Below, piece after piece: positions 3,243 to 22,502 of a stretch of DNA of 22,613 nucleotides (the stretch's first letter is position 1; the number at the start of each line of letters is the position of its first letter). The position numbers and the translations under genes were made by a program. Under the pieces are notes generated by a model, which was given only the letters and a program-made list of their open reading frames with translations, did not search any database and was not told the DNA's origin. The DNA lies in IMG/VR virus record IMGVR_UViG_3300010334_000303, positions 1 to 22,613 of that record; one strand, given 5' to 3'. This DNA is from a virus.

Positions 3243-3803
3243 ATGAAAAAAGTCTTAGCAATTTTAGCACTAACTATTAGTGGCTCAGTATTTGCAGGTT
3301 CTATCACAGTTGAAGGTCAGAACATTGACGGTCAAAGTGGCGGCGCCGATCAGAAAAACTTCAACATGACAGCAAAGGAAAGTATCAACAATACTTTTGC
3401 AGGCCATATTCAAGTTTCAACAACTCAGACAGATAATACCAATGCATTGTCAACTCGTCTTGAGGCTGGTTTGACCGGTTCTGTTGCAGTATTTGGTCCA
3501 GTGACTGGTTATACCACAGTTGCAGTAGGTGAGAAATACAGTTCCACTGGTAGTTTTGCTTACTACTCAGTTGAGCCAGGTCTCTCTGCACCAATTGGTA
3601 GCACTGGTCTAACTGCAAAGGTTGGATACCGTTATCGTACTTCGTTTGATAATTCCAGCGTTAACTTGGATACAACTCAAACAGTTCGTGCTGGCGTATC
3701 ATATGCTCTTAGCAAACAAGATGCAGTTGGTGTCCGTTACGACAAGGTAACAGGCGATTCCAAGCAAAATATTATGGCAGTCAACTACACTCGCAGTTTC
3801 TAA
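3243..3803 (+). CDS. small outer-membrane beta-barrel protein
   Basis: The 186-residue protein begins with a clear Sec signal peptide (MKKVLAILALTISGSVFAG, cleavage after about A18). The mature part is almost entirely alternating polar/hydrophobic strands (for example TGYTTVAVGEKYSSTG, LTAKVGYRYRTSF, QNIMAVNYTRSF) and ends in Phe, the BAM-recognised outer-membrane signature. About eight to ten strands fit the length. The function is unknown: phage-encoded outer-membrane proteins can alter receptors or block superinfection (Lom-like proteins of lambdoid phages). The RBS is AAAAGGAAA upstream of ATG 3243. It sits alone between a late-type promoter and a strong terminator, so it is separately controlled. 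Confidence 0.8.
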   Translation: MKKVLAILALTISGSVFAGSITVEGQNIDGQSGGADQKNFNMTAKESINNTFAGHIQVSTTQTDNTNALSTRLEAGLTGSVAVFGPVTGYTTVAVGEKYSSTGSFAYYSVEPGLSAPIGSTGLTAKVGYRYRTSFDNSSVNLDTTQTVRAGVSYALSKQDAVGVRYDKVTGDSKQNIMAVNYTRSF

Positions 3804-4720: not shown

Positions 4721-6790
4721 ATGAAACTCAAAGCACTAACCTTAGCAATTTTATTGGCCCTGGGCAGTACAGCCTACGCTCAGACCAAAGCACTAAATTA
4801 TGAAGCGCAGGAAATTTCAACAGCACTTGTAAAAACAGGTGTACCAGTTGCATGGTCCAGGGGGTTCACTGGCAAAGGTATAACAATTGCCATTGTTGAT
4901 CAGGGCTTTGATTTAACTCATGCAGACTTTGCCAATAAAATTGTTGGCAGTAAAAATTTCTATGATCCAGCATCAGCGGTAACTTGGGGCCATCATGGAA
5001 CACTGATGGCCGGCATCGCGGCCGCAAATAAAAACGGTTCAGGTACAGTTGGTGTTGCACCTGATGCTAACTTATTGTTGGCTCAAGTGGGAGCTGGTGG
5101 CAGTTCAGTTGGCATTAATTTTACCGCAGTAAAGCAAGCAGTGGATTGGGCCAGTGCCAACGGCGCATCAGTTATCAATCTGAGCCTTGGATCCGTGTTT
5201 GATCCAAATTTTACCAATGGTATCTCTCAAATGTCTGCAGGAATTTATAAAGCACCTGCCGCATATGGATCATTGTATGGTTATAGTACAACCGATGTGC
5301 AAGCATTTGCTGTAGGTACCAACAGAGGAAGTATCATTGTTGCGGCCGCAGGCAATCAGGGACTGGCATACTCACAGGTACCTGGCATGTTTGCCACGCA
5401 GGTTGATAGCACAGGTAAACTAGTACTTGGCGGCAAAATGCTGATTGTTGGATTTGCTGATACCAACGGCAATATTGCCACAGCATCAAACAAGGCCGGC
5501 TCCATTTGTAATAACATATCTGGCTCTACCTGTAACGATCCTTATCTTGTCAAAGACTTTTATGTTGTTGCGCCAGGCATGCAGTTGTATGGCTCAGTGG
5601 CCAATCAATATGGATTGAAAGATGACAAAGGCAATTTGAACACCAGCGGCTCAATTGCAGTTACTGGATCCAGTGGCGCCACGGCCTATGTGTCAGGTGG
5701 CGTGGCGTTGATGAAACAGGCGTGGCCACAGTTAAGGTCAGAACAAATTGTTTCATTGATTCTAAATACAGCCACGCCAATGGGCGATTCAAATGTTACC
5801 GGTCGCGGCATGGTTAACTTTGACAAGGCAACCCAGCCAATGGGCACAGTTACACTGGCCAACATGACCAAATTGAATGGCTCTGGACCACAAGGTAAAA
5901 CAGTTGGCCTCACTGGCACCGGAGTAGCTACATCTGGTGCAATTAGTTTGGCCACCAGCTCAGTGCTACAAAATACTCAAGTGGTTGACAGCATTGGTCG
6001 TAACTATACTGTAAACTTAACACAGGCAGTTGGATTTACCAACTCAATGAGTTACCAATATGCCAGTCCTTGGATGGCTATGGCTTCGTCAAACTACAGA
6101 CACATGGCAGTACCATTTGGTAAAGATGGTGTAATAACATTCATGACCAGTGACACAGGTACCGCAAGTCAATATGAGTGGCAACATAGTGAGCGCACTC
6201 GACTTAACTTTGAAGTGGGTGCATTAAAGGAATTGAATAGTGTACTTGGTTCACAAGGTGGTGGCGCATTGGCATTTGGCGGTAGCAATACCACATGGTT
6301 TGGTGGCGGCGGCAGTTACAAGATTGCCGAGAATACTGCACTGATTGGAAAATATACTGTGGGCTTTACCAAAACCTCCAATGTACAAGATAGTATGGTA
6401 CAATTAGACTCTACAATTATAAGCGACTCATGGAAGCTTGGAGCATCACAAGAACGAGTGTTTATCAATCAAGGCAAATTACATGATGAAATTACTCTAG
6501 CCGTGGCACAACCAGTACAAGTACGAAGTGGTAGTGCAACAGTAACTGGAGTCACATCTTACACATACACAGACAATGGTGATGGCACAAGTACTGCAAA
6601 TCCGCAGTCACAAACAATGCGTTCAAGCTTGGCTCCGCAAGTTCGTGAAATGGATCTGGTACTTGGTTATACTGTCAAACATACCAATGCAACCAGTGTT
6701 GGATTTAATGTGGTACGCCAGTTCAATGCAGGTGGTGCCGCAGGTGTACAAGCAACAGGATTTTCAATAATGGCCCGTAGCGTATTTTAA
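4721..6790 (+). CDS. secreted subtilisin-like protease with autotransporter-like C-terminus
   Basis: The 689-residue protein has a Sec signal peptide (MKLKALTLAILLALGSTAYA, cleaved before Q21). The S8 peptidase domain spans about 45-370 and is catalytically complete: Asp60 in IVDQGFDLTH, His92 in HHGTLMAG, oxyanion Asn212 in AAAGNQG, and Ser318 in GSSGATAYVSG (the usual Pro of GTSxAxP is Ala). Residues about 410-689 are amphipathic strands, and the chain ends in Phe (SIMARSVF). This matches the order of S8 autotransporters such as SphB1 and NalP, where the barrel anchors a surface protease. The segment DEITLAVAQPVQVRSG resembles their barrel motif. It is most likely a cell-surface protease made by the infected host; a virion role is possible. 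A consensus promoter lies upstream. Confidence 0.85.
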   Translation: MKLKALTLAILLALGSTAYAQTKALNYEAQEISTALVKTGVPVAWSRGFTGKGITIAIVDQGFDLTHADFANKIVGSKNFYDPASAVTWGHHGTLMAGIAAANKNGSGTVGVAPDANLLLAQVGAGGSSVGINFTAVKQAVDWASANGASVINLSLGSVFDPNFTNGISQMSAGIYKAPAAYGSLYGYSTTDVQAFAVGTNRGSIIVAAAGNQGLAYSQVPGMFATQVDSTGKLVLGGKMLIVGFADTNGNIATASNKAGSICNNISGSTCNDPYLVKDFYVVAPGMQLYGSVANQYGLKDDKGNLNTSGSIAVTGSSGATAYVSGGVALMKQAWPQLRSEQIVSLILNTATPMGDSNVTGRGMVNFDKATQPMGTVTLANMTKLNGSGPQGKTVGLTGTGVATSGAISLATSSVLQNTQVVDSIGRNYTVNLTQAVGFTNSMSYQYASPWMAMASSNYRHMAVPFGKDGVITFMTSDTGTASQYEWQHSERTRLNFEVGALKELNSVLGSQGGGALAFGGSNTTWFGGGGSYKIAENTALIGKYTVGFTKTSNVQDSMVQLDSTIISDSWKLGASQERVFINQGKLHDEITLAVAQPVQVRSGSATVTGVTSYTYTDNGDGTSTANPQSQTMRSSLAPQVREMDLVLGYTVKHTNATSVGFNVVRQFNAGGAAGVQATGFSIMARSVF

Positions 6791-8660: not shown

Positions 8661-9338
8661 ATGAAAGTACAAGCGCATCCGGACTATTTTTGCCCTTTAT
8701 CGTTGAAGTTACCGCAGACCGCAAAAACCTTCCTACAAGAATTCTTTGTAGATGATTTAAAGGAACAACAATCAAAGAAAAGGCAGTTGGGTTTATATCC
8801 ACTGCCTGATTCTACAGCCTTGATTGAATTAAAGGAATTGGTAGATAACTTTTTGGCGCCACTGCAATTGGCGGCCGGTTCGTATGGTGCATTTGCATTG
8901 AAAGAGTCCACGCAAGATGTCAACATACATGTTGACGCCATGCGTCTCAATACCAGACTGAGTTTTTATGAACTTGCAGAAACACCGGGTGTTATCAATT
9001 GGTGGCAAGATGATGGAACAGGATATGAAGCATGGCGACCCAGTTACCTGGGTGGTAGCCCAATCCTTGATTATCGCTTTCCTTGGGTTGATGATTTACA
9101 AGCAGGAAAAAGAACTTGGGATGAAGTCCCCAAGCCTGTATTTGGTACAAGTACAGCAGTACCTAGTGCTTTATTAATGACAGCACTACCACACAATGTA
9201 TTTCAAGGGCCAGGCTTTAGAATCACAATCACCTGCCAGATTGTTAACCGTCAAACTCGTTCAGTTGAACACACTTGGCAACAAGTACAACAGCATTTTA
9301 ACTCCATTGCATTGCCTGCCAGTGCATACGAATCGTAG
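8661..9338 (+). CDS. 2OG-Fe(II)-oxygenase-like protein (HxD...H...R), 225 aa
   Basis: A double-stranded beta-helix iron triad is suggested by H90-V-D92, H178 and R187, with WW at 114-115 after the first strand. The same residues sit at nearly the same positions in the protein at 20272 (H90, D92, H176, R187), so the two are probably homologs. Members of this superfamily use Fe(II), O2 and 2-oxoglutarate to hydroxylate or otherwise oxidise proteins, nucleic acids or small molecules; the substrate here is unknown. The start ATG 8661 follows AAAGG. The 3' end overlaps the convergent methyltransferase gene by 41 bases. Confidence 0.6.
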   Translation: MKVQAHPDYFCPLSLKLPQTAKTFLQEFFVDDLKEQQSKKRQLGLYPLPDSTALIELKELVDNFLAPLQLAAGSYGAFALKESTQDVNIHVDAMRLNTRLSFYELAETPGVINWWQDDGTGYEAWRPSYLGGSPILDYRFPWVDDLQAGKRTWDEVPKPVFGTSTAVPSALLMTALPHNVFQGPGFRITITCQIVNRQTRSVEHTWQQVQQHFNSIALPASAYES

Positions 9339-10101
9339 CATAGCCAGATCCAAAGTAGTCGGAGCCAGACATGAATTTAAACAGCTGGCCATTGTAATTG
9401 GGATTGGCAGTGATTAGTTTTATAGTTGTTTGTGCTACCTCTGCTGATTTTGCAAAGAACACTTTGTTTTTGCCCCACATGATTGGATACAGCAATTTTT
9501 CTTGATGGGCAATCACAGTGGCCCAAGTGCGTAGCGGTGCACCTGTGCACCAGTCGTCTACAATGTAGATACCACGATCTTTTAGCTTGGGTAACGACTT
9601 TCTAATGGTGTTGAGATTTTCAGCAACACCGTCCCCGTAGTCATGATGTATAATATCATACTGTTCATCAGCTTCTGCTTCGCTCAGGTAGCAAGTCAAG
9701 GACATTGTCCTGCCAGTCAATTGTTCAGATCTTGTGGCAATCCAGGATTGCATATCTTTGGCAGTAGATAATGTTGCTAACACTTCTATTTCTTCTTGGC
9801 TTAAACAACGATTAAAGTGATCTGTATACCAAGCACCACTAGAGTTTGTTTCCTTTGCCCCGATAAAGTTCAAATGATCAACACCGGTAAATTTTACACT
9901 ATTATGACCGGTTTCGCACAATGCTTCATTAAATATTGCAAGTCCACCGCCGATGTAAGATCCAAGTTCTAGGAACTTATCAATTTTGGGTAAACTACCA
10001 AATAACAGCCAACATGCTATGACATCCTCCGGTGGACTTAACATTCCAAGCTTTAGGACATGTTGATAGATGTTGTTTAGATTTTTCCAGGAATAGTCCA
10101 C
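9298..10101 (-). CDS. class I SAM-dependent methyltransferase
   Basis: The only minus-strand gene I support, 267 residues. The start is GTG (10101-10099), preceded on the minus strand by TTGGAGAAAAA. Motif I is FLELGSYIGGG (43-53), motif II ends at GVDHLNF (D75), and DIIHHDYGDG plus IYIVDDWC supply the later acidic strands. The layout resembles the Methyltransf_24/CmcI-type O-methyltransferases, which act on small molecules or glycans. The acceptor is unknown. It lies between two oxygenase-like genes, converging on one and diverging from the other with only 16 bases between starts. Confidence 0.8.
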   Translation of the reverse strand: MDYSWKNLNNIYQHVLKLGMLSPPEDVIACWLLFGSLPKIDKFLELGSYIGGGLAIFNEALCETGHNSVKFTGVDHLNFIGAKETNSSGAWYTDHFNRCLSQEEIEVLATLSTAKDMQSWIATRSEQLTGRTMSLTCYLSEAEADEQYDIIHHDYGDGVAENLNTIRKSLPKLKDRGIYIVDDWCTGAPLRTWATVIAHQEKLLYPIMWGKNKVFFAKSAEVAQTTIKLITANPNYNGQLFKFMSGSDYFGSGYATIRMHWQAMQWS

Positions 10102-10117: not shown

Positions 10118-10660
10118 ATGTGTATGATTGACGACTTCTATGTATACGAAACACCTGACTTTTTAGATCTTCCTTACATTAAAAAACTAGTTATGGACAA
10201 GCTTGAGGCAGAGTTTGTCCTTAAAGGGTATGTGAGAATTGACGTCAGTACCGACGACTATCTAAAATCACTGCAAGAAAGGTTTGTATTCTTGGGTGGT
10301 TGGTTGAACATATATCATACCCCTCCAACAGGGTATATCCCCTTGCACATCGACGGACATCGACTGGCGGCATTCAACATACCAATCAGTGGATGTGATG
10401 ATACATCTGCTACAATTTACTATGAGCCAGTTGACGGCGAGATTGAAAAAGTCTACAAGCCTGACGAACGGCACTACCGAATCACGGGAGAGATGAAAGA
10501 GGTTTATAGATTTTCATTGAAGCGTCCTGCACTGATTCGCAATGATGTGGCTCACGATGTAAAACGATTTGACTCCACTGATATTAGGATCATTGCCAGT
10601 TGGGGAGTAGCAGGCACCTTTGAAGAGTGCAGAAAAAAATTCAAAGAAATTTTGCCATAA
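10118..10660 (+). CDS. 2OG-Fe(II)-oxygenase-like protein (HxD...H...R), 180 aa
   Basis: H77-I-D79 in PLHIDGHRLAAFNIPI, H146 in NDVAHDVKR and R157 in DIRIIASWGV give the facial-triad pattern plus the 2-oxoglutarate-binding Arg eleven residues after the second His. The HIDxxR...FNIPI block is shared with the protein at 20272 (HIDALERG...ARFNIPI). ATG 10118 and ATG 10124 are both possible and neither has a clear SD. There is no room for a promoter in the 16-base divergent gap, so it may be read from upstream, antisense to the methyltransferase. Confidence 0.65.
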   Translation: MCMIDDFYVYETPDFLDLPYIKKLVMDKLEAEFVLKGYVRIDVSTDDYLKSLQERFVFLGGWLNIYHTPPTGYIPLHIDGHRLAAFNIPISGCDDTSATIYYEPVDGEIEKVYKPDERHYRITGEMKEVYRFSLKRPALIRNDVAHDVKRFDSTDIRIIASWGVAGTFEECRKKFKEILP

Positions 10661-14135: not shown

Positions 14136-15008
14136 ATGAATCCAGACTTTACTAATCTAGCCTATGCCAAAGTCAATTTAAACTTTGATGCTGAATTATT
14201 TGCCACCGAATACGATCGGCACATATTGCCACATGGAATTTCCATTTGCAATAGTCTTGAAACTTTAAACACATCTGTTGCACTCAATGAGTATTGGGGC
14301 ATGGTTCCTCCAGATGAATATACCAAAGCAGATGTGTGGCGACAACCAGGACCTGCTACTACATTAGAATATATAAAACAACAACGCCCACAGTGGAAAA
14401 TGGTGCAGTTAATGGGATTAGATATCACAGAAATAACTGACCCATTACTGTTGCGATTTTCCAAGCAAGGGGGACCTAGTGTTCGAAACGAAACACTGGA
14501 TCCAAAGTATAAATTTTCAATCAAACCTTATTTTGCTGATTTGCAAATATACAAATGGATCATTGAAAATATTCCGTTACAGGAAATTAGAAGTTTACAT
14601 TGTGTTAGCATTGAAGCAGGCGGGCTGGCAACAATACATCGAGATGTAAAAGGTCTATATGCTGGTATCAACAACAGCAGTGGATCGGACAATCGCATCT
14701 ATAAAAATGGTTATGTAATTATCAATTTAAATATCAGTAGCGGAGGTGGTCCACTATGGTGGTGCCTGGACGGGCCAGGTGTATTAGATCCGCAAAAATC
14801 AGATGATCAAGTTTATTTGACAAACGATTATTTTTTACATGCAGTTCCATTAATGACTAGTCGACGCCGCCAAATTAGAATCATGGGCAAGCCAAAACCA
14901 GAGTTATGGAACATGTTTGAATCAACGGGCATGATTACACTTCCAGACGACTACCAGTACAACGGCGGATTTGGCATTGAGTTCTTACCAAAAAATGACA
15001 GCAAATAA
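14136..15008 (+). CDS. HxD...H...R oxygenase-like protein, tandem paralog 1
   Basis: The 290-residue protein has H168-R-D170 (ATIHRDVKGLY), H235 (YFLHAVP) and an Arg-rich strand TSRRRQIRIMG (241-251), in the spacing of a cupin-fold Fe(II)/2OG oxygenase. The N-terminal 150 residues have no recognised domain but are clearly conserved with the next gene: AYAKVNL, WGMxPP, GGPSxRNETLD, IHRD, TSRRRQ. The matching N-termini of the two proteins support this start, though there is no SD. The substrate is unknown. It overlaps its paralog by 14 bases and begins the operon that holds radical SAM, phosphatase and PP-loop genes. Confidence 0.6.
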   Translation: MNPDFTNLAYAKVNLNFDAELFATEYDRHILPHGISICNSLETLNTSVALNEYWGMVPPDEYTKADVWRQPGPATTLEYIKQQRPQWKMVQLMGLDITEITDPLLLRFSKQGGPSVRNETLDPKYKFSIKPYFADLQIYKWIIENIPLQEIRSLHCVSIEAGGLATIHRDVKGLYAGINNSSGSDNRIYKNGYVIINLNISSGGGPLWWCLDGPGVLDPQKSDDQVYLTNDYFLHAVPLMTSRRRQIRIMGKPKPELWNMFESTGMITLPDDYQYNGGFGIEFLPKNDSK

Positions 15009-15879
15009 ATTTTCAAACATTGCCTATGCAAAGGTAAACCTGGCGTATGATCGTGAACTTTTTATCAAAGAATATGATGAGATTATATTACCACACGGTC
15101 ACCCAATTTCAAACAATTTGAATGCGGTTGGTTCTACTGCACCATTGAATAAGGTATGGGGAATGATACCACCAGAATTATACAATAAAGGTGATATCTA
15201 CATGCAAGAAGGAAATGCCAACGCAATGAAATACATTGTGCGAGAACATCCAGGTTGGTTAATGGTGCAATTAATGCAAGCTGATCTGACTCAGGTTCCT
15301 GAGTCTAAGAAAGAAATTCTTAAGAAATTTTCTTTTAGAGGTGGACCCAGTTTTAGAAATGAAACATTGGATCTTGATTTTTCAATTAAACAACCTTTTG
15401 AACACATGCAAATATGGAAATGGATACAAAATAATTTACCATTTAAAAAAATTAACAGCATTCATTGTGTGAGTTTAGAGCCTGGCGGGTTTTCAATCAT
15501 ACATAGAGATATGAAAGGCTTGTATAATCCATTGTCTAGTGCAACAACCAACAGACTTTACAAAGAAGGGTTCGTAGTACTTGCGTTGAATTTGTCAGAT
15601 GGTGGATCTCCTTTATATTGGTCGCTGGACGGCGCAGATGCAGTCAATTGTTTTAAAGCCAATGATCCACTGTATCTTTCAAGTGATTACTTCATGCACG
15701 GAGTAGGAATAGTAACCAGTCGCCGACGACAAGTCCGTGTTGCTGGTATTCCAGGTCCTGAATTATGGGATCTATTAGACAAAGATTCTATCATTGACCT
15801 GGGTGAACATTACAAATATGATTCTTCCTGGGCCAGAGATTATGCAGAAAAAGAATTACTAAATCGAGAATCTAAATGA
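14995..15879 (+). CDS. HxD...H...R oxygenase-like protein, tandem paralog 2
   Basis: The 294-residue protein starts at ATG 14995 (MTANKFSNIAYAKVN, aligned with MNPDFTNLAYAKVN of paralog 1) rather than ATG 14971, which lies deeper in the upstream gene. H170-R-D172, H235 and TSRRRQVRVAG (241-251) match paralog 1 almost position for position, as do PSFRNETLD and LNLSDGGSPLYWSLDG. A tandem duplication with divergence is clear. Retention of the metal-binding residues in both copies suggests both are active, perhaps on successive positions of one substrate or as a heterodimer. The stop overlaps the radical SAM start (ATGA). Confidence 0.6.
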   Translation: MTANKFSNIAYAKVNLAYDRELFIKEYDEIILPHGHPISNNLNAVGSTAPLNKVWGMIPPELYNKGDIYMQEGNANAMKYIVREHPGWLMVQLMQADLTQVPESKKEILKKFSFRGGPSFRNETLDLDFSIKQPFEHMQIWKWIQNNLPFKKINSIHCVSLEPGGFSIIHRDMKGLYNPLSSATTNRLYKEGFVVLALNLSDGGSPLYWSLDGADAVNCFKANDPLYLSSDYFMHGVGIVTSRRRQVRVAGIPGPELWDLLDKDSIIDLGEHYKYDSSWARDYAEKELLNRESK

Positions 15880-17390
15880 ATGTTGTACTATTAAATTCTG
15901 GTCCAAGAATTAATGAATTTACAGTTTACAGAACACTGGGTCCTTACAAGCTGGCACATGCACTGAGAAAAATTGGCATTTCTACAGTGGTAATTGATCA
16001 CGTCAGATGGTTAGATGATAACACTTTAACACAACTGCTGGATAAGTTTGTAACAGATGATACACTTTGCATTGGTATCAGCACCACATTTATATACCAA
16101 CAGTTTGATACACCAGTTTTTCCGCCGGGCCTGCAAACTGCAATTGAAAAACTTGCTCAAAAATTTCCCAGGGCAAAAATTGTGTTGGGAGGACCTTACA
16201 CGCAAAGATTTAAAGTAGAAGTACACCCTTCGTTTACTAAAGAGATTGATGCAATATTTGAAGAGTACTCTGAAGATACATTTGTAGATTACATACGCTC
16301 AATAAAAGAATCTAATATCACACTAATGCCACCATTTACTCATGAATTATGGAATGGCAAAGGAGTATTGTGTTTTAAAAAGCCCAAGATAGAACGATTT
16401 AACATTGAAACAAGTGCATTCAGATTTGTCGACGATGATGTAATTATGCCCAATGAGACATTGCCATTGGAAGTCAGCCGCGGTTGTATTTTTAAATGCA
16501 AATTCTGCAATCATTTGTTGTTGGGCAGAGGCAAGCTGGATTATCTAAGAGATTTTGAATTACTAAAAGATGAGCTAATGCACAATTATGAAAAGTGGGG
16601 AATAACAAACTATTATATCATTTGCGATACATTCAATGACACTGAATATAAAATGAAAGCCTGGTATGATATGGTAGCAAGCTTACCTTTTAAAATCAAG
16701 TATACTTCATATTTGCGAGCAGACTTGTTGGATAAATTTCCAGATGTACCTTACATGCTACAAGAATCTGGGTTGCTGGCTGGTTTTCATGGAATAGAAA
16801 GCCTGGGCGAACAGGCTTCAGGCATCATTGGCAAAGGTTGGAGTGGCAAAAGTGCAAGAGAATATATACCAAAATTGTACCATGATATCTGGAATAAAAA
16901 AGTAGCGCAGACGCTCAGTTTCATTGTTGGATTAACCGGCGACACAAGAGAATCTTTGCTGGACACAGCACACTGGTTTGTTGACAACGATCTTTATAAC
17001 ATAACCTGGTCGTCATTGGGTCTTAGTAATCTAGGGGCTGTGCCCGGTCGACACGCCAGCGAATTTGAAAAAAATGCAACCAAATATGGATATGAATTTG
17101 TTGAATTTATAGCTGATAATCGAAGAAAGACCAAGGGGTATTATTGGAAGACTGATTATTGGACTCTGCGAGATGCTGACAAATATGTGCAAGAAGTATT
17201 ACGACCGGTGACCAACAAATCAAATGCGCCACATGGCAGTTGGACACTTTTGCAGTTTATGCAATATCCTGGTGTGACCGAAGAAAATTTGACCAAAGAA
17301 AATTCTAAAAAAATTGTAGCTGACCTTGATCTACGCCTGCAACAAAAATTATGGATCAATGCGTATGTAGGAAAAATGCTTGCTCTTTAA
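15876..17390 (+). CDS. radical SAM protein with N-terminal cobalamin-binding-like domain
   Basis: The 504-residue protein has an N-terminal Rossmann-like domain (about 1-140: VVLLNSGPR..., ...KIVLGGPYT...) of the kind that precedes class B radical SAM enzymes; the DxHxxG cobalamin-ligand motif is not evident, so B12 binding is uncertain. The 4Fe-4S motif is C204-IFK-C208-KF-C211 in EVSRGCIFKCKFCNH. Later blocks (GLLAGFHGIESLGEQ, SFIVGLTGDTRESLLDTAHWF) match the substrate/SAM side of the barrel. Class B members methylate or rearrange unactivated carbons in natural products, tRNA and lipids. The C-terminus is unassigned. It is coupled to the oxygenase-like pair (ATGA overlap). Confidence 0.85.
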   Translation: MNVVLLNSGPRINEFTVYRTLGPYKLAHALRKIGISTVVIDHVRWLDDNTLTQLLDKFVTDDTLCIGISTTFIYQQFDTPVFPPGLQTAIEKLAQKFPRAKIVLGGPYTQRFKVEVHPSFTKEIDAIFEEYSEDTFVDYIRSIKESNITLMPPFTHELWNGKGVLCFKKPKIERFNIETSAFRFVDDDVIMPNETLPLEVSRGCIFKCKFCNHLLLGRGKLDYLRDFELLKDELMHNYEKWGITNYYIICDTFNDTEYKMKAWYDMVASLPFKIKYTSYLRADLLDKFPDVPYMLQESGLLAGFHGIESLGEQASGIIGKGWSGKSAREYIPKLYHDIWNKKVAQTLSFIVGLTGDTRESLLDTAHWFVDNDLYNITWSSLGLSNLGAVPGRHASEFEKNATKYGYEFVEFIADNRRKTKGYYWKTDYWTLRDADKYVQEVLRPVTNKSNAPHGSWTLLQFMQYPGVTEENLTKENSKKIVADLDLRLQQKLWINAYVGKMLAL

Positions 17391-17408
17391 GCGCAAATCA
17401 CATATAAT
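17380..17408 (+). promoter_or_regulatory. sigma70-type promoter within the 3' end of the radical SAM gene
   Basis: TTGCTC (17380-17385), a 17-bp spacer and TATAAT (17403-17408). The expected start point, 6-8 bases after the -10 box, coincides with ATG 17415, which predicts a leaderless mRNA. Confidence 0.7.
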
Positions 17409-17414
17409 ATACAC

Positions 17415-17933
17415 ATGCCTTGGATTGAAAACATACCTTTAGAAAATGTAGCCACCGGACGTCATCATGATTGCGGTGACAACAGTATGCTGATCCAAAT
17501 TTCGGATCATGACATGGCGTTTCCTACTCCCAAACATCACTTCAAAGAAGTACACAAATTTACATTTTTGGACATTGAAGAAGATGGCATGACCAACACA
17601 GGTGATGGTAGAACCATTGACATGAGCGAGTTTGCCATTACAGATGCACAGGCCGCAGAGCTTGTGCGCTTGTTGCAACATGCCTTTGAAAATCGCATGA
17701 ATGTTGTGGTTCACTGTCATGCCGGTGTTTGCCGTTCAGGTGCTGTGGCAGAAGTTGGTGTTATGATGGGCTTTGCAGATTGCGAGCGTTTTCGTATTCC
17801 AAACCTGTTGGTCAAGCATAAAATGATGCGGGTGCTTGGATGGACCTACGATGAGCAGGAAAAGTCCTACGATGTAAACGGTACTGTTAACGAATGGGGC
17901 TTTATACTGCCCAATCATGACGGAGATATTTAA
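17415..17933 (+). CDS. CX5R cysteine phosphatase (dual-specificity/tyrosine-phosphatase-like)
   Basis: The 172-residue protein carries the P-loop signature HC(X5)RSG in VVVHCHAGVCRSGAVAEV (97-114): catalytic C101 and R107. An upstream acidic loop (TIDMSEFAITDAQAAE, 67-82) may supply the general acid Asp. The size suits a minimal dual-specificity phosphatase domain, which removes phosphate from Tyr/Ser/Thr, nucleotides or lipids. The target is unknown: it could act on host phosphoproteins or within the neighbouring pathway. There is no SD and the promoter -10 box ends six bases before the ATG. The stop overlaps the next small gene (TAATG). Confidence 0.8.
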   Translation: MPWIENIPLENVATGRHHDCGDNSMLIQISDHDMAFPTPKHHFKEVHKFTFLDIEEDGMTNTGDGRTIDMSEFAITDAQAAELVRLLQHAFENRMNVVVHCHAGVCRSGAVAEVGVMMGFADCERFRIPNLLVKHKMMRVLGWTYDEQEKSYDVNGTVNEWGFILPNHDGDI

Positions 17934-18112
17934 TGGATTGGTTACGCTATAGCGGCCTATGGATAACTGTAATTTTCAACCCATTCCATTGGCGCATTTC
18001 TTACTGCATTGATTCAACCCAGGCCGAATGGCCAAGCCCCAGTCGCCGAGAAATTGTAATACAGGTCATCATGCTGTCATTCAGGCTAGTTGTCGACAAT
18101 GGTGACTGGTAA
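17933..18112 (+). CDS. small aromatic-rich phage protein, 59 aa
   Basis: The frame opens at ATG 17933 inside the phosphatase stop and ends at TAA 18110-18112. The product is rich in Trp and Phe (MDWLRYSGLWITVIFNPFHWR; SFRLVVDNGDW) and looks like a small beta-strand or membrane-peripheral protein. The ending FRLVVDNGDW resembles short phage proteins of unknown function. The start overlap and the eight-base gap to the next gene support its being translated. Confidence 0.65.
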   Translation: MDWLRYSGLWITVIFNPFHWRISYCIDSTQAEWPSPSRREIVIQVIMLSFRLVVDNGDW

Positions 18113-18120
18113 GTATCGTT

Positions 18121-19083
18121 ATGAAATACGGCCTAGACGAAAACGACAAATATTGGATTGAATATACCAGCCTGCCCAGACCCATTGGAAACATGCGGCA
18201 AGAATTGGATTTGGCCTGTCAGCGCATTGCCAACGAAAGGAAAACAATAATCAGTCTAAGCAGTGGTTTAGACAGCCAAGTTGTACTGCATAGCTTTATA
18301 CAACAAGGCTTGCCACATGAATGTGCGTTTATGTATCATCCTGGCTTTAATGATTCTGAATTTCAAAATATTAAAATCTTAGAGAAAAAATACAACTTTA
18401 AATGCAATATCATTGACATTGATCCAATGGCTATAAAAGATGAAATAGAAGCGTTGTCGACTGCAACAAGGATACCACCACAACATCATATCAAAGCAAA
18501 ATTTCTAGACCAACTTGATCAAGCTTGTCATGTGCTAGAAGGTCCAGAAAACCCAGACCTATTTGTAAACAACAACAATTTAAAATTGTCAGCCGCCGAT
18601 GAGGGTACTTGGCGCATGATGGAAAGTTACAATGCCATTGACACAACATCAGCTTGGTTCCATGCAAATCGACAAAACCCCACTGTGTATTTAGATAGAC
18701 GAAGTTTGCATCAGGAATTTGCCATCAGCATGCTGATTGACGACATTGCAGTGGCCTATAGGCATGCATTTCCATATATTAAAGAAAACGGCATGGTAGA
18801 TCCAAAAACTGGAAAAGCACCATTGTGGATCATCTGGGGCTGGGGCCTGTATATCAAGCCTATTCAATTTGGCAAGTATTGGGGCAATGAGCTAGAATAT
18901 TTTCCAAAATTTGCTGTGCAAAAAGAAATAGATTATGTAGCAACTCCCAAAGTAATACACGACTATCTGGCACGAGTAATTTTCATCGACCTAGACCGGC
19001 ACTTGGAGTTGATGTGCGATTATGGATCAAATCGCACAATAAAGCATACGCAAACATATATACAAAATGCAAAAAACATTTAA
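18121..19083 (+). CDS. PP-loop ATP pyrophosphatase, asparagine-synthase-like, copy 1
   Basis: The 320-residue protein has the PP-loop SLSSGLDSQ (45-53) at the end of the first strand, as in N-type ATP pyrophosphatases, and KYNFKCNIIDID (about 90-101) as the next strand. Family members adenylate a carboxylate, carbonyl or phosphate-like oxygen with ATP and attach an amine or sulfur (asparagine synthase, beta-lactam synthetase, tRNA thiolation enzymes). There is no glutaminase domain, so it does not use Gln in the AsnB way by itself. Several Trp-rich segments (WIIWGWGLYIKP, about 238-249) are unusual. It overlaps the second PP-loop gene by 17 bases. Confidence 0.75.
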   Translation: MKYGLDENDKYWIEYTSLPRPIGNMRQELDLACQRIANERKTIISLSSGLDSQVVLHSFIQQGLPHECAFMYHPGFNDSEFQNIKILEKKYNFKCNIIDIDPMAIKDEIEALSTATRIPPQHHIKAKFLDQLDQACHVLEGPENPDLFVNNNNLKLSAADEGTWRMMESYNAIDTTSAWFHANRQNPTVYLDRRSLHQEFAISMLIDDIAVAYRHAFPYIKENGMVDPKTGKAPLWIIWGWGLYIKPIQFGKYWGNELEYFPKFAVQKEIDYVATPKVIHDYLARVIFIDLDRHLELMCDYGSNRTIKHTQTYIQNAKNI

Positions 19084-20275
19084 TAAAAATCTAGGTTATT
19101 ATGTATGTAATGATATTGATTTTCATTCTAAAATTGAAGCATGTATATATGGAACAAAAGTCAACCAGCCAGTACGCTGGATGTTCAACAACGCAGTTTT
19201 TAACTCACACAATTGGGCAGTGGAACCTAGTGAAACATTAGATCAGTTGTATGATTCCCGTGCAAGACAGCTTCGTGAAAAGTATGACTATGTTATATTA
19301 AGCTACTCGGGCGGCGCAGACAGCAACAACATCTACGAAAGCTTTCGTAGACAAGGCCTGCACATTGATGAAATTGTAGTTAATACAATGACAAAGGCCA
19401 GCGAAAAGTTTATTACAGTAGATGCAAACAGTAAAAATTCTTACAATGGTCCAGAAAGCGAACATCAATTGCATTTGTTGCCGCGCTTACGCACAATCGA
19501 AAATGAAATGCCTCGAACCAAGATTCGTATCTTTGATCTAAGTGACACATTATTTGAAAGCCTGGCCAACACAGATGAAAGTTGGGTATTGAATCAAAAG
19601 GAAGGTCTTAATCCAATTGGTATTACACGATTTAACTATCTGAGTTTTGATGAAGTCAAGCGTGATTTTGACCGCGGCAAGAGTACTTGTTTAATTACAG
19701 GAGTTGAAAAGCCCAGAGTTATAATTCGAGAAAACAATTTATTAATGCGGTTCAACGATCGTAGTGCCAATATCAACACAGTGGCAGAGCATATCAAAGA
19801 ATATGAAAACTGCACAGTGGAATATTTTTATTGGGCTCCAGAAAGTGTGCGTATGTTGATCAAGCAAGGACATGTTATCAAGAAATATCTAGAGGCGTTC
19901 CCTGCTCAACAAGAATTTTGGCTAGAACACAGAGTTACTCCAGCGTTGACACGCCTGATGCACGAGCGTGTGTTAAGAAATCTGCTGTACACAACCTGGC
20001 AAGAAGAGTGGTTTCAGGCAGACAAAGCAGTGAGTGATTGGTACAGTGAGTTTGATCGTTGGTTCATTGATCATTACAAAGACACGTCAGCTTGGCGAAA
20101 TTGGCATGCTGGTATTGACTATGTTAAGAACAATTTAAAACCATTTTTAAAATCAAATGGACGCGGAATTCCAGACGGTTTAAAGCCAGTGGCACACATT
20201 TATAATCTTGGACCAATCAAATTAGCAACCAACACATGGCTAATTGGAGAAAGCGGACAAAACAGACCACCATGA
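19067..20275 (+). CDS. PP-loop ATP pyrophosphatase, asparagine-synthase-like, copy 2
   Basis: The 402-residue protein has SYSGGADSN (79-87), the canonical SGGxDS PP-loop, after an N-terminal region of about 75 residues without recognised motifs. The next strand carries EIVVNTMTKAS. It is longer than copy 1 and the two share little beyond the PP-loop, so they are distant relatives rather than a recent duplication. Like copy 1 it lacks a glutamine-hydrolysing domain. Adjacent, overlapping PP-loop genes suggest either a complex or two ATP-dependent ligation steps on one pathway intermediate. The stop overlaps the next start (ATGA). Confidence 0.75.
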   Translation: MQKTFNKNLGYYVCNDIDFHSKIEACIYGTKVNQPVRWMFNNAVFNSHNWAVEPSETLDQLYDSRARQLREKYDYVILSYSGGADSNNIYESFRRQGLHIDEIVVNTMTKASEKFITVDANSKNSYNGPESEHQLHLLPRLRTIENEMPRTKIRIFDLSDTLFESLANTDESWVLNQKEGLNPIGITRFNYLSFDEVKRDFDRGKSTCLITGVEKPRVIIRENNLLMRFNDRSANINTVAEHIKEYENCTVEYFYWAPESVRMLIKQGHVIKKYLEAFPAQQEFWLEHRVTPALTRLMHERVLRNLLYTTWQEEWFQADKAVSDWYSEFDRWFIDHYKDTSAWRNWHAGIDYVKNNLKPFLKSNGRGIPDGLKPVAHIYNLGPIKLATNTWLIGESGQNRPP

Positions 20276-20913
20276 CATATAAAAACTACCATATTCCAAT
20301 GCCCAAGTTCAATCCAACAGAGGCCGAACAGAAATGGGCATTGGAGAATATTGCACCCGAGTTGGAGCCAGCATTGAAATTGATCAAAGGTGCATTTGAC
20401 AGAGTTGACGTGCCGCAAGAGTTATTTAGACCATGGCCTCAGCGTGATGCAGTACTGGCGCACTTTGATGAATTAAAATTGGAATTTAAAAGATTTGCCG
20501 GTTTTATTTCACATCCTGGTCAATGCCCCAAGAGTGCTCATATAGATGCACTTGAACGCGGTGTAGCAATGGTAGCCCGTTTTAATATTCCCATACAAGG
20601 ATTAAGTCCAGTCACACTGGATTGGTGGAATGACGGAATTGACAGCGATCGAATTGGCGAGCGTGTGTTCACTGAACTTAGAAATGGCGTAGAAAAACCA
20701 GCCTACAGCTTTAAATCTCTAATAGATGACTGGGGTACCACCCCAGCGTTTACGGTGCTAGATCCAGGAGCATGTTGGAACAGGACTGAAATTGCACACA
20801 GAGCACAAAGCCCCAACTGTGCTGTCAGCAGGATTCAAATCACAGCAGAAGTTAAACAACAAATTGCCTGGACTGAATTGGTTGCCAGACTAGAACGCCT
20901 GGGCTACTGTTGA
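20272..20913 (+). CDS. 2OG-Fe(II)-oxygenase-like protein (HxD...H...R), 213 aa
   Basis: ATG 20272 overlaps the upstream stop as ATGA and is chosen over ATG 20236, which lies further inside that gene. H90-I-D92 (SAHIDALERG), FNIPI (104-108), LDWW (116-119), H176 and R187 parallel the protein at 8661 (H90, D92, WW, H178, R187) and the HID...FNIPI block at 10118. These three form one family within the window, distinct from the two longer paralogs at 14136 and 14995. The substrate is unknown; placement directly after the PP-loop genes suggests a shared pathway. Confidence 0.65.
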   Translation: MTYKNYHIPMPKFNPTEAEQKWALENIAPELEPALKLIKGAFDRVDVPQELFRPWPQRDAVLAHFDELKLEFKRFAGFISHPGQCPKSAHIDALERGVAMVARFNIPIQGLSPVTLDWWNDGIDSDRIGERVFTELRNGVEKPAYSFKSLIDDWGTTPAFTVLDPGACWNRTEIAHRAQSPNCAVSRIQITAEVKQQIAWTELVARLERLGYC

Positions 20914-20917
20914 CCCA

Positions 20918-20958
20918 TTGACAATCTGTGGCGATTGCTGTATAATAGCAGTAATCGC
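20918..20958 (+). promoter_or_regulatory. sigma70-type promoter with operator-like inverted repeat over the -10 box
   Basis: TTGACA (20918-20923), a 17-bp spacer and TATAAT (20941-20946). The -10 box is enclosed by inverted repeats GCGATTGCTG (20931-20940) and CAGTAATCGC (20949-20958), 9 of 10 complementary. This is where a repressor would block polymerase. Confidence 0.85.
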
Positions 20959-20976
20959 TTTTCTTTTGGAGAAATT

Positions 20977-21387
20977 ATGTTAGAATGTTTGATCTTAGGT
21001 GACAGTATTGCAGTAGGCACACAGCAATTCCGACAGGAATGTGCGCTGATAGGCAAAGGTGGAATCAACACAGCACAATGGAATCGTATGTATCGGAGTC
21101 GAGATCTAACTGCCCGCAATGTTATTATTAGCTTGGGTACAAACGATCACGCCGGTGTCAATACCTTTCGGGAATTGATGGACATGCGTATGCGTGTGGA
21201 TGCTGATCATGTGTTTTGGATCTTGCCGCCTTGCAATGACAAATTCTGCAAACCCGCAGTGAATGAAGTAGTTGAACTTATTGCTCGAAACTTTAATGAC
21301 ACTGTTATTGGCACTAAAAAACTACAAACAGATGCCATACACCCCAGCTGGTCAGGGTACCAAGAACTGGGCCAAAAGACAAAATAA
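20977..21387 (+). CDS. SGNH/GDSL-type hydrolase
   Basis: ATG 20977 follows TTTTGGAGAAATT and lies downstream of the promoter start point, unlike ATG 20935. The 136-residue product has GDSIAVG (8-14, Ser10 nucleophile), a Gly in GKGG (27-30), SLGTND (52-57, Asn56) and DAIHPSWSGY (119-128, Asp119 and His122): all four SGNH blocks, in a protein shorter than typical family members (about 180-220). Known members deacylate lipids, sugars and peptidoglycan. Phage versions may remove O-acetyl groups from surface polysaccharide. It lies just before an adhesin gene, and there is no signal peptide, so it could be a virion component or cytosolic. Confidence 0.82.
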   Translation: MLECLILGDSIAVGTQQFRQECALIGKGGINTAQWNRMYRSRDLTARNVIISLGTNDHAGVNTFRELMDMRMRVDADHVFWILPPCNDKFCKPAVNEVVELIARNFNDTVIGTKKLQTDAIHPSWSGYQELGQKTK

Positions 21388-21452: not shown

Positions 21453-22502
21453 ATGACAATCAGATCGTCAGGCGCACTGCCTGCCAGTGAAATCAATGCC
21501 GAACTCGGGCTCGCTTCAACCGCACAAATTGGCATTGGTGGAGCAGTACCTAGAGGCCTAGCTGGCGTTGCGTCAGGTGCTATTGCATTCAGCAACTTTT
21601 ATGGCAAGGCCAATCTGACACCGGGCAATGGCGGTCTATTCACAACATCAACCACATTTACAGTACCCAGCTCATCTGGCGGAACACTCAACATATTAAG
21701 CATTGGTGGCGGCGGTGGCGGTGGCGGTGGAACAAATCGTTGTGCTGTTTATCTGTATGTGGGTGGCGGAGGAGGTGGCTCCGGAGAAATCACATTAAAA
21801 ACAGTGACCGTGACACCTGGTACAGTTTTGACAATCACAGTTGGTGCCGCAGGTTCAGCTGGCGGACAGCGTGATGGACAATATGGCGGCGGTGCCGCAG
21901 GTGGCACAGGCGGTACTACCACTGTCAAAAACGGTGCCACTATTTTGACCGGTGCAGGTGGCGGAGGAGGTGGCGCACTTTCTCAACAGCCGTCGTCGTC
22001 ACCTATTCTTGACAACTATAGTGCTCACTTTAACCAAAGCGTTATCAATACAGCGGCCAGCACAATTTTAGCGGCCGGAGGCGCAGGTGGTTCAGGTGGC
22101 GGAGGTGGTTCAGGCTACACAAATCCGTTTGCCAGCGTGGCCGGCAATGGCACTTCTTATGCAGGTACCACCTACATGGGCGGCGGCGATGGCGGCCGTG
22201 GCTACACCATCGATACCACCAGTGGCGTGGCTACACCATACGGCACAGGTTCTGCAGGTCGTGGCGGACGAGGAAATGTTGGCCCACAAATCCAGCTGGA
22301 CAAGGGTTACTATTATTTCACGCCACAAAATAGCTGTAAAGGCGGTTCGCCTGCCGCAGGAAACTACATTGCTCAAGCAGGAAGCACCTATGGAGGTGGA
22401 GGTGGTGGTGGTGGTATGGACAACGAATATTGCGGTACCACTGGTAAAGCCACTGGTGTTGCTGGCGCGGGCGGCGCAGTATTCATCTGGTGGGGTTATT
22501 GA
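21453..22502 (+). CDS. glycine-rich phage tail fibre/adhesin protein
   Basis: Residues 1-52 (SGALPASEINAELG...ISLGGAxVRxLAG-like...SNFYGKA) match a module found at the N-terminus of many phage tail and baseplate-associated proteins. A beta-rich linker (FTTSTTFTVPSSSGGTLNILSIGG) then leads into a long Gly-rich body with runs up to nine Gly, repeated GGAGGxGG patterns and interspersed loops. It ends in GAGGAVFIWWGY. Such regions form polyglycine type II sandwiches in receptor-binding adhesins like the gp38 of S16-type phages. It probably sits at the tail tip and binds the host surface. The start has no good SD. Confidence 0.8.
   Translation: MTIRSSGALPASEINAELGLASTAQIGIGGAVPRGLAGVASGAIAFSNFYGKANLTPGNGGLFTTSTTFTVPSSSGGTLNILSIGGGGGGGGGTNRCAVYLYVGGGGGGSGEITLKTVTVTPGTVLTITVGAAGSAGGQRDGQYGGGAAGGTGGTTTVKNGATILTGAGGGGGGALSQQPSSSPILDNYSAHFNQSVINTAASTILAAGGAGGSGGGGGSGYTNPFASVAGNGTSYAGTTYMGGGDGGRGYTIDTTSGVATPYGTGSAGRGGRGNVGPQIQLDKGYYYFTPQNSCKGGSPAAGNYIAQAGSTYGGGGGGGGMDNEYCGTTGKATGVAGAGGAVFIWWGY

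Follow-up and report, generated by a model that had tools for sequence, protein, structure and literature searches.

The DNA analysed here (hereafter the window) is a 22.6-kb viral fragment, positions 1–22,613 of IMG/VR record IMGVR_UViG_3300010334_000303, in which eight intact genes on the + strand, several of them overlapping by 4–17 bases, occupy positions 14136–21387. Two adjacent genes of this cassette encode the PP-loop proteins PP1 and PP2, which in related phages lie side by side far more often than expected and which, judging by the predicted fold of PP2, may be a pair of asparagine-synthetase-like enzymes. We tentatively read the cassette as a modular, natural-product-like pathway for amidating and oxidising a carboxylate, carried by T4-like jumbo phages in a hypervariable island, and consider this reading possible, if short of probable. 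The initial annotation, made from sequence, had described the same eight genes, at or very near the positions found here, as one candidate tailoring pathway, and had placed a methyltransferase and two HxD proteins (8661, 10118) upstream. All of these genes are present, and the enzyme classes assigned to them are borne out by library matches, predicted folds and motifs; the likeness of the PP-loop proteins to asparagine synthetase was missed.

Of the cassette proteins, sequence libraries recognise just the radical S-adenosylmethionine enzyme (rSAM) and the phosphatase (DSP), with weaker matches to the SGNH protein and to PP1 around its P-loop; they give no significant family match for PP2 or the oxygenases Ox14136, Ox14995 and Ox20272; PDB sequence searches with four alignments also returned nothing significant. 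The PP2 assignment comes from an AlphaFold2 (AF2) model with a predicted local distance difference test (pLDDT) score of 90, built from 49 sequences. The first twelve rows of its VIA-align comparison hold E. coli AsnB, human ASNS, β-lactam synthetase, TsnB9 and carbapenam synthetase, with Z of 8.1–10.8 over 227–291 residues spanning residues 1–374 of the model, whereas other PP-loop enzymes reach Z ≤7.6 and align with the core only. Carbapenam synthetase is the top Foldseek match as well. Against a viral structure library, every match along the full length is to an uncharacterised protein from uncultured Caudovirales, and proteins named asparagine synthase come next, at E ~1e-3. The model thus predicts the overall synthetase fold, including the C-terminal helical part, and PP2 shares with this superfamily the SGGxDS motif of the PP-loop (S81-x-G83-x-D85), invariant in 49 homologs. 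It differs in being only ~400 residues long, with ~70 residues before the PP-loop and no N-terminal Ntn glutaminase domain with its Cys1, in showing no significant sequence similarity to the superfamily, in sitting beside a second PP-loop protein, and in being restricted to viruses in the searches made. Candidate counterparts of the GEGSDE loop and Lys449 of AsnB are G212-x-E214-K215-P216 and K320 of PP2.

PP1 and PP2 are distantly related (hhalign probability 95%), so that the PP-loop assignment of the initial annotation holds for both proteins, through the fold for one and profile similarity for the other, as does its statement that neither carries a glutaminase. A comparison of PP1 with AsnB by hhalign was not significant. 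PP1 also matches the QueC-like PHROG 1550 (4.3e-6), over ~80 residues round the P-loop only; the C-terminal zinc-binding cysteines of QueC are missing from PP1, and a queuosine/7-deazaguanine role was rejected. An apparent insertion in the PP2 gene of locus L048 was an artefact of joining PP2 to the PP1 that follows it. We infer from the fold, the intact PP-loop and the missing glutaminase that PP1 and PP2 would work as a functional pair of acyl-adenylating synthetases, which would use bound ATP to adenylate a small-molecule carboxylate and couple it to free ammonia or another amine, yielding an amide or lactam; the choice of free ammonia or another amine follows from the absent glutaminase domain.

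Gene linkage was assessed in ~190 related IMG/VR loci, which group at 90% DNA identity into 109 lineages; neighbourhoods reach 10 kb only, gene calling was greedy, and lineage labels depend on profile-score cut-offs of our choosing. Expected adjacency was obtained by shuffling genes within loci (200 shuffles), which keeps local content and removes operon structure. PP1 and PP2 are side by side in 23 of the 31 PP1 lineages (6.3 expected, maximum 11 in any shuffle), in tandem, reversed, divergent and convergent orientations, in agreement with the earlier expectation that the pair travels together; among loci retrieved with PP1 alone, PP2 is no more than three genes away in 16/19 lineages. Distances within the two families correlate (Mantel r 0.78). 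All nine lineages with Ox20272 have it two genes or fewer from PP2 (4.3 expected, shuffle maximum 8). Additionally, PP2 adjoins a TctC-type binding protein in 20 lineages (6.3 expected), a nitronate-monooxygenase-like (NMO) flavoprotein in 11 (4.4 expected) and a DUF2061 protein in nine (1.9 expected). Rieske oxygenases are also found beside PP2 in relatives, and a phage-encoded TctA tricarboxylate transporter (L046, 6396–7883, 6.8e-139) is located near PP2-type genes. These counts define a core consisting of PP1, PP2 and an oxygenase, joined in many lineages by carboxylate uptake. Because its linkage to PP2 is constant, Ox20272 would act after the pair, hydroxylating the amide or lactam product or its precursor. 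In relatives, the substrate would probably be captured by the TctC-type periplasmic protein, in some cases together with TctA, and NMO-like and Rieske enzymes would take part in its processing. In the window lineage, the paired oxygenases and rSAM would decorate the molecule further with hydroxyl, methyl or other groups, and DSP, and perhaps the SGNH protein, would be passengers.

Several observations weigh against this reading. PP2 has no match to asparagine synthetase at the sequence level (PF00733 is absent from its 49 members, and hhalign to AsnB is not significant), and its structural matches, at Z ~10, have 6–10% identity and 5–6 Å root-mean-square deviation, so that such a fold could house a different chemistry, thiolation among others. 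Common descent of the phages inflates the Mantel values, and co-occurrence is partly regional, since a single kind of gene-rich island supplied every locus. The window lineage itself has neither TctC nor NMO beside PP2. An rSAM gene lies three genes or fewer from PP2 in five lineages (7.9 expected), DSP adjoins PP1 in four (2.9 expected), and neither these two genes nor the paired oxygenases are significantly linked to PP1 or PP2.

The last of these points bears on the alternative that there is no single pathway and that independent cassettes gather in a hypervariable island, with functional coherence limited to PP1/PP2 and Ox20272, which we judge somewhat unlikely. Within-island shuffles account for the rSAM–PP2, DSP–PP1, rSAM–DSP and Ox20272–SGNH adjacencies, all at chance level; PP2 occurs within 10 kb in just 5/57 lineages retrieved with rSAM, and DSP is mostly found beside metallophosphoesterase (MPE) and kinase (PNK) genes. 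The earlier claim that all the genes belong to one pathway is not upheld by these counts, and rSAM, the paired oxygenases, DSP and the SGNH gene are exchangeable. Yet the order Ox–Ox–rSAM–DSP–PP1–PP2–Ox–SGNH is kept throughout in the nearest lineage (L003–L006) at 64–92% protein identity, and the part from rSAM to SGNH recurs in a contig whose PP2 is 57% identical (L026/L176); a distant phage (L099) again has the oxygenase pair beside rSAM. As the whole order is kept in the nearest lineage, the genes may act together in this phage.

The three HxD proteins that the initial annotation counted in the cassette are all present; Ox14136 and Ox14995 are close paralogs and Ox20272 is a distinct protein. 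The AF2 model of Ox14136 (pLDDT 84, seven sequences in the alignment) has as its best VIA match a nucleoside-antibiotic hydroxylase (7v4m, Z 12.9, 3.0 Å, 160 residues aligned), followed by proline 3-hydroxylase and PHD2 (Z ~10). H168xD170...H235...R244/R245/R248 are invariant in seven homologs, so that the pair has the HxD...H triad and distal Arg of 2-oxoglutarate (2OG)/Fe(II) dioxygenases on a predicted double-stranded β-helix. Ox20272 appears oxygenase-like by its motif, H92xD94...H178...R189, invariant in 10 homologs. Loss of catalytic residues across homologs had been named beforehand as counting against the pathway, and these residues are instead invariant in relatives. The paired type is rare: a single-sequence scan of IMG/VR with Ox14995 found no match and an alignment-based search found five loci, the relatives being confined to the nearest lineage, L099, where two copies directly precede an rSAM gene of the same family, and L019, where one homolog is beside PP1. 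Co-occurrence of the PP-loop pair with these oxygenases is seen in the nearest lineage and, through PP1, in L019, and does not reach significance.

The rSAM protein belongs to the radical SAM superfamily by PF04055 (7.9e-7) and by a CX3CX2C cluster motif invariant in 67 members. Its nearest curated family is the PhpK-family P-methyltransferase (NCBIfam TIGR04479; 1e-18), other B12-type NCBIfams matching more weakly; the 67 bits obtained fall far short of the cut-off of 600, and no phosphinate genes were noticed nearby. The B12-binding domain PF02310 has no match in the window protein and matches a bacterial relative at 2.9e-5. A bacterial locus (L214; G237:C127:4000-20000) contains at least five paralogs of this rSAM family, several of them preceded by a repeated gene for a 200-residue partner, and adjoins a pyridoxal-phosphate (PLP) decarboxylase and two genes read as adenylating enzymes (the one tested had no Pfam match). 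Such a context resembles that of secondary metabolism and is consistent with rSAM acting in biosynthesis. In DSP (library match 5.4e-6), HCX5R (H100-C101...R107) is invariant in 26 phosphatases; given its usual neighbours in relatives, DSP is probably outside the pathway. A P-loop kinase and a calcineurin-like phosphoesterase gene (1478–2562 in the window) adjoin DSP in many related phages, which suggests a separate kinase/phosphatase module. The SGNH protein has a weak PF13472 match (2.3e-4) and the hydrolase blocks GDS, Gly, Asn and DxxH (S9/G28/N55/D118xxH121, invariant in 13); its association with the cassette is loose.

The classes of enzymes present also allow other substrates. PP-loop, rSAM and 2OG enzymes are all known from tRNA and DNA modification, eleven tRNA genes precede the cassette, PP1 has its weak QueC-like match, and the structural matches of Ox14136 include AlkB-type enzymes as well as the nucleoside-antibiotic hydroxylase at their top. 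Hypermodification of phage DNA or tRNA is nevertheless very improbable in our judgement, with PP2 closer to asparagine and lactam synthetases than to TtcA, TilS or QueC, PP1 lacking the QueC zinc cysteines, and the enriched neighbours being TctC transport proteins rather than nucleic-acid enzymes; a thymidylate synthase search matched four contigs over the full length and offered no hint of hypermodified bases. A modified nucleotide in phage DNA, one of the products first considered, is thus not favoured, and a small carboxylate is. That the enzymes act on a virion protein, such as the glycine-rich fibre encoded directly after the cassette, or on a ribosomal peptide is most improbable: the fold of Ox14136 resembles PHD2 and prolyl hydroxylases, and rSAM families of ribosomally synthesised and post-translationally modified peptides (RiPP) are among the weak matches, but PP2 stands beside many different genes, usually not a fibre gene, and no precursor peptide was noticed.

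Relatives of PP2 are encoded by ~494 IMG/VR stretches and those of rSAM by 441. The 49 PP2 members have no PHROG or relevant Pfam match, PP2 itself has none in NCBIfam, and tblastn against 50,697 phage records with Ox14136, PP1, PP2, rSAM, three PP2/rSAM relatives, TctC and two other PP-loop families gave no match. A genome scan gave a single bacterial PP2 locus, a 3-kb contig from a metagenome-assembled genome (MAG) with three PP2-like copies (L191), which is probably phage DNA, and a PP2 profile search of 369 Gammaproteobacterial genomes found matches in that genome only; PP2 is apparently a virus-only family. T4-type Gp23 is present on 8/15 long contigs, and contigs reach 524 kb; T4-like jumbo phages are therefore among the carriers. 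These large phages come from freshwater, and their host may belong to the Burkholderiales. Within 7 kb of one genome (L008, 9082–16194) are three PP2 paralogs, one PP1 homolog and TctC genes, an arrangement that suggests diversification of the synthetases inside a single genome. We can speculate further that jumbo phages of the T4 type have developed a two-subunit amide or lactam synthetase of their own, absent from bacteria, and have linked it with exchangeable genes for oxygenases, rSAM and carboxylate uptake into a biosynthetic system, specific to viruses, whose diffusible or envelope-bound product serves during infection, a proposal that we regard as unlikely as a whole. If the pair truly forms amides, phages would own a branch of the asparagine/lactam synthetase superfamily with an exchangeable oxidative and radical toolkit, a viral chemistry of small molecules that reaches past ordinary auxiliary metabolic genes, with compact and directly testable enzymes. 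The PP2 family is common in large aquatic phages yet present in no family library.

Among known systems, the carbapenem/thienamycin and clavulanate pathways employ an asparagine-synthetase-like synthetase, 2OG oxygenases and B12 radical SAM methyltransferases. The cassette brings these three classes together as well, with rSAM as the putative counterpart of the third, but has no genes for carboxymethylproline or another precursor, and the likeness is one of enzyme class. Neither the databases nor the papers searched yielded a named phage system with this gene set, as had been surmised, and literature searches, with incomplete coverage, turned up neither the set, nor the synthetase pair, nor its links to TctC, NMO and Ox20272. 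The cassette shares a hypervariable T4-like island with radical SAM genes with the T4-like pelagimyophages, which are reported to carry radical SAM cassettes in a host recognition cluster and, in freshwater members, stearoyl-CoA desaturase and 2OG-FeDO genes (PMC7029224), and with a T4-like marine genome reported to have 12 radical SAM genes (PMC5332604); the accessible portions of both papers do not mention an asparagine-synthetase-like pair or TctC or NMO linkage. Since lipopolysaccharide (LPS) genes accompany the radical SAM cassettes in that host recognition cluster (PMC7029224), the cassette sits before a fibre-like gene, and desaturases, GNATs and fatty-acid hydroxylases are frequent in related islands, the enzymes could instead modify a host surface glycan or lipid, for example by amidating LPS uronic acids as asparagine-synthetase-like O-antigen enzymes do. 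This we find decidedly unlikely: family-2 glycosyltransferases are absent from 7/12 contigs and distant from PP2 in the other five, and the neighbour census contains no glycosyltransferase family.

The features of the window are listed in Table 1, with gene starts set by homolog alignment and overlap. The ratio of nonsynonymous to synonymous substitution (dN/dS) against L004 is 0.05–0.26 for all cassette genes with an estimable dS (14995 is saturated), which indicates purifying selection on genes that are in use; a small open reading frame (ORF) in the cassette, 78% identical in L004, has a value of 0.26. A search for the T4 late-promoter pattern found one site, at chance level and away from the cassette.

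Table 1. Features of the cassette and its surroundings in the window.
Feature	Position	Strand	Basis
Ox14136, 2OG/Fe(II)-type oxygenase (predicted), first of paralogous pair	14136–15008	+	Fold, motif
Ox14995, putative second oxygenase of pair	14995–15879	+	49% identity to Ox14136; 14-base overlap with it
rSAM, radical SAM enzyme, putatively class-B-like (B12-binding type)	15876–17390	+	PF04055, CX3CX2C
DSP, DSP/PTP-type phosphatase	17415–17933	+	Library match, HCX5R
59-residue ORF, no assignment	17933–18112	+	Kept in nearest lineage
PP1, PP-loop synthetase-like protein	18121–19083	+	SSGLDS P-loop, PHROG 1550, hhalign to PP2
PP2, PP-loop protein resembling asparagine synthetase, no glutaminase domain	19067–20275	+	AF2 model
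Ox20272, small HxD...H...R oxygenase-like protein	20272–20913	+	Motif; start 20272 preferred to 20236
SGNH/GDSL hydrolase	20977–21387	+	PF13472, SGNH blocks; start 20977 preferred to 20935
Glycine-rich fibre/adhesin-like protein after cassette	21453–22502	+	PF21722, 1.2e-5
HxD oxygenase-like protein upstream	8661–9338	+	HxD...H...R seen in sequence; no family match
Class I methyltransferase upstream	9298–10101	-	PF13578, 1.2e-5; conserved in L004, L114
HxD oxygenase-like protein upstream	10118–10660	+	H77xD79/H146/R157 invariant, n=4

At least three further PP-loop families occur in the same phages (L007, 4298–5551 and 14619–15542; L181, 4145–4777), one of them QueC/ATP_bind_3-like; the two from L007 are absent from annotated phage records. 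L007 also encodes a DctP-type TRAP binding protein (5609–6550), apparently without a signal peptide, and several lineages carry one. Elsewhere in the window, positions 4721–6790 encode an S8 subtilase with a signal peptide (PF00082, 1.6e-37) and a C terminus resembling an outer-membrane domain, a phage-encoded secreted protease. A small porin-like outer-membrane protein with a signal peptide (3243–3803), ~50% identical to one in another phage (L009, 16950–17513), is possibly a superinfection or envelope factor.

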